21,997 nucleotides of DNA from positions 1-21,997 of IMG/VR virus record IMGVR_UViG_3300021085_000251; one strand, given 5' to 3'. This document shows positions 19,119 through 21,738 of this stretch, piece after piece (the stretch's first letter is position 1; the number at the start of each line of letters is the position of its first letter). The position numbers and the translations under genes were made by a program. Origin of the DNA: a virus. The notes beneath the pieces were generated by a model, which searched no databases, had not been told where the DNA came from, and was given only the letters and a program-made list of their open reading frames with translations.

Positions 19119-19625
19119 ATGATTATACGAAATATTATTGACAGTGATATCTGTCAACTTATCGCTCTTTGCGAAAAAGAAAATACCCCGCGCGCTCATC
19201 AAGGCGATGGGCTGGGATATAACGCTTATAATGAATATGTGTGGATCAAGAATACTCTTGCCCTATACGAACAAGCTAAAGACCCTTCGTCTGGGAATCT
19301 TTGCATAGGTGTGTTCGATGAGAACAACGTTATGTTAGGATTCCTTACAGCCAGTTATTTTTCGAATTGGTACACTGGGTCGTACATTGCAGATATGAAA
19401 GATGTTTGCACAGACATGACCCATGACAAATACCATGAGGTCTTTGAAAAGTTATTTAGACGGTTTATCAATCATTACGCTCAACTCGGTGTTACCGATT
19501 GGAGGGCGGATACGATTAGGTCTGAAGACGATAATGGTCTGAAGTTTGGTAATTACATTAAAAAACTTTTTAGCGAAGAGAACGATATTGTTCTCAACAC
19601 TTCCGTTAGGGGAGTAAACAGATAA
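19119..19625 (+). CDS. Acetyltransferase-fold (GNAT-like) protein, 168 aa, catalytic loop not visible
   Basis: The ATG at 19119 follows TTGAGGA (19107-19113). An in-frame GTG at 19074 would place the start inside the UUCG hairpin and is rejected. The N-terminus MIIRNIIDSDICQLIALCEK is the usual first strand and helix of GNAT proteins. The middle CIGVFDENNVMLGFLTASYF fits strands 2-4, and the C-terminal part has a long helix (KYHEVFEKLFRRFINHYAQL) followed by strand-like DWRADT and KFGNYIKKLF. The acetyl-CoA-binding loop (Q/R-x-x-G-x-G/A) expected before the long helix is replaced by CTDMTHDKYHE, so it may not be an enzyme. In T7-like phages a gp13-type internal protein with such a fold sits in a similar place after the tail tube genes, and this could be a counterpart. 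The fold call is moderate; activity is doubtful. Confidence 0.6.
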   Translation: MIIRNIIDSDICQLIALCEKENTPRAHQGDGLGYNAYNEYVWIKNTLALYEQAKDPSSGNLCIGVFDENNVMLGFLTASYFSNWYTGSYIADMKDVCTDMTHDKYHEVFEKLFRRFINHYAQLGVTDWRADTIRSEDDNGLKFGNYIKKLFSEENDIVLNTSVRGVNR

Positions 19626-19639
19626 TTGAGGAAACAATT

Positions 19640-20425
19640 ATGAAATACGAAAACGAAATGTTCCAAGACCTCATGGGAATCGTTATCGAGACCAACGATA
19701 AATGGCTTGATAAGAAGCTCAATGGTCATGTATGTTATAAAGGTGGAAGTAGTCGTCAGACTTCTACATCAGCACCTTTAATTCCCAAGGAATTCAAACC
19801 ATTTGCTAGTCAATATGGTAGACAACTTACTAGAGCTTCTCAAAGCGGCAATGTGTTTGGCCAGTTAGCGGATGTAGATCCCTCATTAACAAAAGCTCAA
19901 GAAGCTGCTTTAGGCCGTGCAGGTGAAGTTCGTCAGTTAGGACAAGCAGGCGTTCAAGCGCAACAAGAAGCTTTAACTGGTCGTGGTTTGTTTGGCGCTC
20001 AAAATCTTGAAAACCAAAAAGATGCCTTAGCAATGCAAGCAGCTGAACGTCTTAGTCAACAAACTGAGAATCTTGGTGGTGAAGCTAGCGCACGTGGTGT
20101 AGCTGGTGGTCGTCGTACTCAGTTTGGTAAAGAACGTGCTAAAGCCCTTGCTGGCGCTGAATTGACAGGACAACTAGCAAAGCTTGATACTCAAGATCTT
20201 TCGGCTCGTCGCGCTGCTTCAGCCGCCGCTCGCGGGGAAACAGGGATGATGCAAAAAGCTGGTATGGCGGATATCGATGTCCTTCGGGGTGTCGGTAAAG
20301 AACGTGGCGCTCGTGCGCAACAGCAAGCTGAACAACAATTTCAAGCCCTCCAACAACAAGCGGGTCTCTTTACGGGTCTCCCTCAAGGTCAATCTCAAAC
20401 CACTAGCGGTGGTGGAGGTAAGTAA
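19640..20425 (+). CDS. Putative DNA-ejection / internal virion protein with shared N-terminal leader (261 aa)
   Basis: The ATG at 19640 follows GAGGAA (19628-19633). Residues 7-36 (MFQDLMGIVIETNDKWLDKK, then LNGHVCYKGG) are nearly the same as residues 1-30 of the next gene's product. The rest is Ala/Gln/Arg-rich and helical, with segments such as LTKAQEAALGRAGEVRQLGQ, NLGGEASARGVAGGRRTQFG and ERGARAQQQAEQQFQALQQQ, and ends in a Gly/Ser tail. I associate this composition (long helices with AG-x-x-R and Gln-rich repeats) with phage ejection or internal virion proteins such as those of P22 and T7 groups and many marine podoviruses. The gene is followed by an overlapping (TAATG) second leader-bearing gene and then a lysozyme. 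The role is inferred from composition and order, not from a recognised domain. Confidence 0.62.
   Translation: MKYENEMFQDLMGIVIETNDKWLDKKLNGHVCYKGGSSRQTSTSAPLIPKEFKPFASQYGRQLTRASQSGNVFGQLADVDPSLTKAQEAALGRAGEVRQLGQAGVQAQQEALTGRGLFGAQNLENQKDALAMQAAERLSQQTENLGGEASARGVAGGRRTQFGKERAKALAGAELTGQLAKLDTQDLSARRAASAAARGETGMMQKAGMADIDVLRGVGKERGARAQQQAEQQFQALQQQAGLFTGLPQGQSQTTSGGGGK
19658..19747 (+). repeat. Leader module copy 1
   Basis: Thirty codons (residues 7-36 of the 261-residue protein) encode a segment matching the first 30 residues of the following gene in 23 of 30 positions, and most differences are conservative (L/I, E/D, V/I). Synonymous positions differ widely, so the likeness is kept at protein level. 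Confidence 0.88.
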
Positions 20426-20514
20426 TGTTTAAAGATATTATGGGTATCGTTATTGATACCGAAGATAAGTGGCTTAACAAGAAACTTAACTCTCACATTT
20501 GCTATAAAGGTGGC
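20425..20514 (+). repeat. Leader module copy 2
   Basis: The first 30 codons of the 437-residue protein gene pair with 19658-19747. Both copies end in H-(V/I)-CYKGG followed by Ser/Gly, and both have the same DKWL and KKLN blocks. Confidence 0.88.
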
Positions 20515-21738
20515 GGAAGCGAAACTGATTTTCTAAATACGTTTCAACAACAAGTATCTGAAGGCCCAACAGAAGTTACTAATACTTCTTCTTCTTCCAG
20601 CGGTCTTGAACAAGGCTCATCTAAAGTAGCCGAAGCTCGCACTAAGCTTGAAGGCGCTCTTGGATCTCTTCAGGGTCTTAAGGATGGCAGTTCAGGCGTA
20701 TGTTCTTGTGGTAAACCTAAAGGTAAGTGTAACTGTAAAGGTTACGCTGACGGTACAAGATCTATTGATGAGCTTATGAAAGAATACCGTGAAAAAATGA
20801 ACGCCCCTACAGAAAATACTGAAAAACTTCGTTCAATGATTCGCGAGAAACAAAAGAAAGGTTACGCTTACGGTACTAAAATGGCTAGCCCTATGGGATA
20901 CTACATGGGCGACGCTGCAGTAGCTACTCCACAAGAACAACAAGAAATGATGGCTATCCAACCTGGTGTTCGTATGCAAGCTCCTGCTCCGACACCTGAA
21001 GAGCCAGACCCTATGCAACAAGCGGTTCAAGGTGTAGCTATGAATGAAGCTATTTCACCTGTAGTTGGTTATGCTAAAGATCAAGGCGCTCAAGCATTAA
21101 CAGGACAAACAAGTGGTGCTATTGCGGATGCTGCGGCAAAAGAAGCCTCTAAATCAGCGGTAGATGCGGGTGTTGCTATATCTAAAGACATGGCAGCAGA
21201 TGCAGGCGCTGAAGCTGTAAAGGCAGCTGGTGGTGGTGCTTTGAATAGCGCCCTTTCAGGAATAGGTGGTGCAGCCGCTGCAGATCTTCTTACTAAAGGT
21301 AAGGTCGATGAGAAAACACTTCTGAAAGGTGGTCTCGCTATGGGTGCTAACATGCTTCTCCCAGGTTCAGGTTTCTTAGTAGGCCCTGCAATGTCTGCTC
21401 TCGGACTTAAAGATGGTATGATGGAAGTACCTCCGATGGGGTATGCTGACGGTACTGCTAAGATGACCCCCGAAGAATATCAAATGAAATTCATTAAGGA
21501 ACGCATTGTAGAACCAGCCGAAGCGTACGTTGAAGAACGTCCTATGCTCCAAGCACCTTTACTTATGGCCGCTGCCGCCCGTGATTACGAGCGTGGTAAG
21601 CTTCCACTCGGTAAATTCGGTGGTGGTAAGCTGGAAGGCGGTAAAGATCGTCTTGCTTATCGACACAAAAAATATGGTGAATTCGAAGTTAACCCAGAAT
21701 CTGAACGAGTATCGTACAAGAAAACATTTCGCTTCTAA
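20425..21738 (+). CDS. Putative internal virion protein with leader, Cys cluster and GYADGT repeats (437 aa)
   Basis: The ATG at 20425 overlaps the previous stop, with GGAGGT at 20414-20419. Residues 1-30 are the leader module. After a Ser/Thr/Gly linker, residues 93-104 form a CxCx6CxC cluster (CSCGKPKGKCNC) that could bind a metal. GYADGT occurs at 106-111 and 339-344, with GYAYGT at 146-151. Residues about 198-290 are Ala-rich helical, and 296-332 include a hydrophobic Gly-rich segment (GANMLLPGSGFLVGPAMSAL) that could enter a membrane. The C-terminus is basic (GKFGGGKLEGGKDRLAYRHK). Such a mix (leader, linker, repeats, hydrophobic helix) suits a DNA-ejection protein that leaves the virion and inserts in the host envelope. 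Similar GYAxGG-type repeats occur, in my memory, in marine phage virion proteins. No enzyme motif is seen; function is inferred. Confidence 0.62.
   Translation: MFKDIMGIVIDTEDKWLNKKLNSHICYKGGGSETDFLNTFQQQVSEGPTEVTNTSSSSSGLEQGSSKVAEARTKLEGALGSLQGLKDGSSGVCSCGKPKGKCNCKGYADGTRSIDELMKEYREKMNAPTENTEKLRSMIREKQKKGYAYGTKMASPMGYYMGDAAVATPQEQQEMMAIQPGVRMQAPAPTPEEPDPMQQAVQGVAMNEAISPVVGYAKDQGAQALTGQTSGAIADAAAKEASKSAVDAGVAISKDMAADAGAEAVKAAGGGALNSALSGIGGAAAADLLTKGKVDEKTLLKGGLAMGANMLLPGSGFLVGPAMSALGLKDGMMEVPPMGYADGTAKMTPEEYQMKFIKERIVEPAEAYVEERPMLQAPLLMAAAARDYERGKLPLGKFGGGKLEGGKDRLAYRHKKYGEFEVNPESERVSYKKTFRF

Follow-up and report, generated by a model that had tools for sequence, protein, structure and literature searches.

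A short N-terminal leader shared by two adjacent genes of an SU10-related podovirus, and its likeness to the removable leader of P22 gp7

Why do two adjacent genes, the products of which otherwise have nothing in common, begin with the same 30 amino acid residues? The question is raised by the IMG/VR virus record IMGVR_UViG_3300021085_000251, of which positions 1 to 21,997 were analyzed (hereafter the window, 21,997 nucleotides). The window holds part of the genome of a marine SU10-related podovirus: matches to SU10-type families were obtained for the genes of the portal, scaffold, major capsid, and adaptor (PF23899, 1e-130; PF17236, 2e-77; PF24175, 3e-8). Among named phages Roseobacter phage CRP-7 is the nearest (53% in the portal); it is a marine podovirus and belongs to an isolated group (PMC6918029). 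The features needed for the first part of the analysis are as follows.

19119-19625, + strand: small GNAT-like gene directly upstream of gene A, with weak GNAT matches only and 95% identity to L001
19640-20425, + strand: gene A, 261 residues, consisting of leader, KGG linker, Ala/Gln-rich helical body, and GGGGK end; predicted small ejection protein (body profile; phrog_4287 via intermediates)
19658-19747, + strand: leader copy in A, residues 7-36 (MFQDLMGIVIETNDKWLDKKLNGHVCYKGG), 23 of 30 residues identical to residues 1-30 of B
20414-20419, + strand: GGAGGT, ribosome-binding site of B within the GGGGK codons of A, read directly from ggaggtaagtaATG, with the TAATG stop-start overlap next to it
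20425-21738, + strand: gene B, 437 residues, Gly/Ala-rich, with one hydrophobic Gly-zipper-like stretch (residues 310-328)
20425-20514, + strand: leader copy in B, residues 1-30 (MFKDIMGIVIDTEDKWLNKKLNSHICYKGG), matching the A leader at 23 of 30 residues

T7, P22, epsilon15, and CRP-4 have their genes in the same order as the window: a tail protein is followed by a small GNAT-like or internal protein, a small ejection protein, and then further ejection proteins. The GNAT-like gene of the window occupies the position of T7 gp13, P22 gp14, and epsilon15 gp13, and homology to P22 gp14 was not detectable. Its identity to the L001 counterpart is 95%, against 57% for the adjoining gene A, and in the other homologous contigs the position holds a clearly different small protein of a GRxGWxRxL type. 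On the 3' side of B lies a lysozyme-type gene, the L001 homologue of which matches endolysin and internal-virion-lysozyme families.

The initial annotation had stated that the two genes start alike and then diverge, and this is borne out. Residues 7-36 of A and 1-30 of B agree at 23 of 30 residues and 67 of 90 bases, and a search of the window with the B leader retrieved the A leader at E = 1e-15 and no third copy. Chance similarity is ruled out by these figures (23/30 residues, E about 1e-15), and so is an assembly duplicate, because 23 of the 90 bases differ. Past the leader, the local alignment score between A and B was 47, compared with a shuffle mean of 48.7, and 283 of 500 shuffles scored as high; nothing is common to the two proteins beyond the leader. 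At the codon level, 12 leader codons are identical, 11 differ synonymously, and seven differ in the encoded residue. The NG86 dN between the two copies is 0.133 while dS is saturated, and the protein sequence of the leader is therefore constrained. Since 11 of the 23 shared codons differ synonymously, an RNA-level element behind the likeness of A and B is rejected as well. An internal start after the KGG is ruled out, as no in-frame ATG, GTG, or TTG occurs in the next eight codons of either gene. A Sec or lipoprotein signal peptide was not recognized in the A leader, which has no hydrophobic core and a best 19-residue hydropathy of −0.16.

The annotation had also described the synonymous bases as diverged, which is correct for A against B but does not extend to A against its closest orthologues. 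Between the window and L002, synonymous differences were found at 4/28 in the leader versus 47/82 in the body, and between L017 and L018 at 4/30 versus 63/160. The leader codons of close A orthologues (19640-19747 in the window) are kept beyond the needs of the protein, possibly by local recombination or by a nucleotide-level constraint at the gene start.

The gene A alignment, together with two DNA patterns for the leader, was used to scan IMG/VR. The leader was present on gene A in ten contigs, always as a single copy and always on gene A; three of the ten have an identical gene A start, so about eight are independent. A further match in the L005 record, weak and partial over 17 residues (E 0.03), was taken as chance. 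The 50,697 phage records searched gave no credible match, and the leader was not found in named phages, bacterial genomes, or plasmids. Among nine homologues the mean pairwise identity was 69% in the leader and 30% in the body, the leader being the higher in 36 of 36 pairs, and no 30-column window of the A body exceeded 33% identity. The residues F, D, L, K-K-L-N, and C-Y are invariant. As judged from these alignments, the leader is a normal part of A and its best-conserved one, and the difference of 69% versus 30% supports the annotation's view that the leader is a module of its own at the N-terminus of virion-region proteins.

Window A gave no direct family match. Its body profile, built without the leader, retrieved the ctXG6705 protein at 1.3e-13, and the body of the L023 homologue was aligned by hhalign over 206 columns (p 8e-5). 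Both the ctXG6705 protein (2.6e-7) and L023 gene A (6e-17) match phrog_4287, annotated as 'DNA ejection protein', which is also matched by tf_54 and by SU10 gp21/gp22; the window A body is linked to phrog_4287 through these two intermediates only. The earlier reading of A as an ejection-protein homologue is strengthened by this chain, by which A is assigned to the small ejection proteins of the SU10 gp21/gp22 and LUZ24 gp53 family. SU10 gp21 and gp22 belong to the virion proteins that are gone once the genome has been released (PMC9509320). The structures predicted by AlphaFold for A (pLDDT 51) and B (pLDDT 35) were too poor for use.

The GGGGK C-terminus of A is present in most homologues and encodes the ribosome-binding site of B (20408-20427, ggaggtaagtaATG). 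Because the same DNA serves both, the conservation of GGGGK is probably not about the protein. The motif ggaggt or ggaggc precedes B in eight of the nine compared loci, and A and B overlap by TAATG.

Further leaders emerged when the ejection proteins of a hand-picked set of named phages were compared. In CRP-7 gp37, LUZ24 gp53, Bjorn, and P22 gp7 the corresponding position is occupied by leaders of 16-36 residues that are unrelated to it, and the usual end is an aromatic residue followed by Lys-Gly-Gly: HICY before KGG in the window, ITF before KGGGG in CRP-7, AY before KGG in LUZ24/PaP3, HF before KGGG in tf, and KF before KGGGG in Bjorn. The phrog_4287 match starts at residue 25 in tf_54, 24 in ctXG6705, and 48 in L023, which places it at the Gly run or immediately behind it. 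SU10 gp21/gp22 match from residue 1, and the leaderless members of the family (SU10, HTVC106P) begin at the Gly-rich segment. These alignments suggest that the leader is an optional N-terminal extension of the ejection-protein body. The bodies of CRP-7 gp37 and L017 gene A match at 7e-15 while their leaders are wholly unlike, and the CRP-7 leader recurs in L039 with 28 of 30 residues identical; at the sequence level, leaders have thus been exchanged on one body. The LUZ24-like phages have a third leader type, with variants, and ctXG6705 a fourth. In the same way, the gp7 relatives of P22, Kapi1, and phiSG1 carry different leaders on one body, and the leader ends seen among them are PE-KGG, YC-KGG, and LM-KGG.

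Apart from the KGG, no significant likeness was found between the leader types; for the window and LUZ24 types, both of which contain LMG, common ancestry was not significant against shuffled decoys. A KGG within residues 11-45 occurred in 7 of 377 phage ORFs, four of which were the proteins discussed here (window A, window B, CRP-7 gp37, and tf_54), and only these four have an aromatic residue before the Lys. The junction is variable: the Gly run measures 2-6 residues (GG to GGGGGG, including KKGGG and CYGGGGGG), the Lys is missing from CYGGGGGG of L018 and FYGGGG of ctXG6705, and Lyrsu01 reads WKGS. As annotated, the LUZ24 gp53 homologue of Pseudomonas phage BroderSalsa (L064:301-354) starts too late and lacks the first 18 leader residues, which are restored by the GeneMark start.

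A leader of this kind has been studied in P22. The host oligopeptidase OpdA removes residues 1-20 of gp7, the mature N-terminus being Lys-Gly-Gly-Lys-Gly (PMC8402733; PMC4992974). Deletion of the leader leaves about 60% of the burst, and the leader is not needed for the packaging of gp7 (PMC8402733). The gp7 precursor reads SYPE and then KGGKGG, i.e., the cut is exactly before K-G-G. No further studied case of ejection-protein leader cleavage was found in the literature. The window leaders are likewise short and end directly before K-G-G, which places the candidate cuts as follows.

19739-19747, + strand: K34-G35-G36 of A, with a putative cut before K34 (Y33/K34), by analogy with P22 gp7
20506-20514, + strand: K28-G29-G30 of B, with a putative cut before K28 (Y27/K28), by the same analogy

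A gave no match to the gp7 family PF25688, and hhalign p values of 0.026 and 0.047 were not significant; since homology to P22 gp7 is undetectable by sequence, in the leader as in the body, the P22 cut serves as an analogy for A. Of the processing signal that the annotation had tentatively placed at the Gly-Gly end, the location is plausible given the KGGKG start of mature gp7, whereas the double-glycine type does not stand. We propose, with confidence that is about evenly balanced, that A carries an exchangeable and removable N-terminal pro-leader with a Y/KGG junction, and that B gained a copy of it. The leader would most likely act before or during procapsid assembly, where it may keep a membrane-active ejection protein soluble and/or route the protein into the head. 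A host peptidase would then cut before the Lys, as OpdA does in P22 gp7, and the mature protein would begin with the Gly-rich linker. With a leader copy gained ahead of its old start, B could be handled in the same way as A.

The main competitor of the pro-leader is an uncleaved docking peptide, a possible but rather unlikely reading in which the leader is retained after maturation and attaches to the portal, scaffold, or core, the Gly run is a flexible tether, and the B copy docks alike. A conservation far above that of the body would fit such a peptide, as would the varying length of the Gly run, which is expected of a linker. P22 ejection proteins also enter procapsids via the scaffold, and residues 21-154 of gp7 and N-terminal parts of gp20 suffice (PMC8402733). 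A plain tether, however, has no need of the Lys that recurs before the Gly run in most of the unrelated leaders; moreover, the sole such leader studied, that of P22 gp7, is removed, and the leaderless SU10 gp21/gp22 are packaged all the same.

We regard as improbable a capsid-targeting sequence like that of T4, a short N-terminal tag that directs otherwise unrelated proteins to the head core before a phage prohead protease cuts it off. In T4 the mature parts of IPI, IPII, and IPIII have diverged while their N-terminal tags are alike, and ten IPIII residues are enough; A and B likewise have only the leader in common. The same tag does stand on unrelated proteins in the window, in this one phage and with a presumed place of B in the virion. 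The junction, however, lacks an [LI]xE cut site, and P22 gp7 is packaged without its leader. In addition, a prohead protease was not recognized between the portal and capsid genes among the tested ORFs of the record, which is a fragment with its small ORFs partly covered.

The pro-leader reading leaves the question of how B came by its copy, for which one more feature is needed.

20515-20700, + strand: residues 31-92 of B, joining the leader to the ancestral B start (CSCGKPKG), with no convincing relative found

No match of B to known families was found; its position and single hydrophobic stretch suggest that it is probably an ejected membrane protein. After residue 150 much of B can be aligned to L001 gene B, with 30-93% identity per 30-residue block. 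In the two closest relatives, L001 and L002, gene B is without the leader and starts MRxKKDM, and CSCGKPKG, at residue 93 of window B, has its aligned counterpart at residue 9 in gene B of L001. The leader is found on B in the window only, the other homologous contigs holding the gene A copy alone, and the idea of a general tag common to A and B is thereby not supported. Residues 31-92 of B gave no phage match at E<=10 and nothing convincing in the fetched loci, and their origin as a second gene A remnant was unsupported (shuffle P 0.04-0.72 over eight homologues). Short GYADGT-like motifs are repeated in B at about residues 106, 146, and 339, in addition to a CSCGKPKGKCNC cluster (gene at 20425-21738), and GYxxG-like motifs recur in B and in the lysozyme-type protein of L001 and L002.

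The window A leader differs from those of L001 and L002 by 4-6 synonymous codons, and the window B leader from every leader by 9-14. Compared with any other leader, the B copy is saturated at synonymous sites and hence not young, and with the A leader so near to L001 and L002, a recent tandem duplication is ruled out. As L002 is the outer one by identity of both A and B, the simplest reading of the sequences is that the B leader was gained in the window lineage; arrival from an unsampled phage and an old copy lost twice both fit. The copy could also be an evolutionary accident, i.e., a leader gene piece of another phage that recombined into the B start and was tolerated, to which we give little credence. 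The leader on B was found once, no convincing relative of residues 31-92 was found, and the region is mosaic (the upstream gene and gene A being 95% and 57% identical to L001), all as an accident would have it. On the other hand, the B copy keeps every invariant leader residue, and its residues matter, because dN is 0.133 with saturated dS.

The last alternative, put forward by the annotation, is a double-glycine leader that a C39-type peptidase would cleave behind the GG; it agrees with the Gly-Gly end of the leader and can be dismissed almost entirely, as the hydrophobic positions −4/−7/−12 read Y/H/K in both A and B, the Gly count is 2-6 and not a fixed GG/GA at −2/−1, the known P22 cut is before Lys and not after Gly-Gly, and ABC-transporter export is unexpected for an internal ejection protein.

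The proposal bears on the means by which ejection proteins are taken up into heads and remain inactive before they are ejected. Tentatively, and at less than even confidence, the pro-leader may be a wider arrangement: P22-like, LUZ24-like, and CRP-7-like phages and the present group would then use, on their small ejection proteins, functionally equivalent and freely exchanged pro-leaders with a common aromatic/Lys-Gly-Gly junction and a host oligopeptidase, and the window phage would have started to employ its leader as a portable tag for a second ejected protein. Should the arrangement prove general, tractable phages such as LUZ24 or P22 would allow its function to be tested, and the window phage, in which two unrelated proteins naturally carry the leader, offers a built-in test of the portable-tag idea.

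Among known systems, the gene A body belongs, via ctXG6705 and L023, to the same family as SU10 gp21/gp22 and LUZ24 gp53 (phrog_4287, phrog_7477). The leader of LUZ24 gp53 is of another sequence, ending AY-KGG, and unlike A, SU10 gp21/gp22 are without a leader. The two SU10 ejection proteins (L041:21904-23937) are full-length paralogues (32% over 275 residues), so their N-terminal likeness is not that of a leader on unrelated bodies. Roseobacter phage CRP-7 gp37 has a homologous body and a leader ending TF-KGGGG, as in the KGG type, but the leader sequence is wholly unlike that of the window and CRP-7 gene B carries none. The T4 IPI/IPII/IPIII tags resemble the window leader as a short N-terminal block on otherwise unrelated internal virion proteins; the T4 tag is, however, about 10 residues long and cut by gp21 after [LI]xE, whereas the window leader has 30 residues and no such site. 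P22 gp7 (PF25688, phrog_598; 229 residues compared with 261 in A) is like A in its place in the gene order, between a small GNAT-like or head gene on one side and other ejection proteins on the other, and in its layout of a short leader, KGG with a Gly/Ser linker, and an Ala/Gln-rich helical body. The leader is on one protein in P22 and on two in the window, and its cleavage is established for P22, while the junction in the window is predicted from the sequence.
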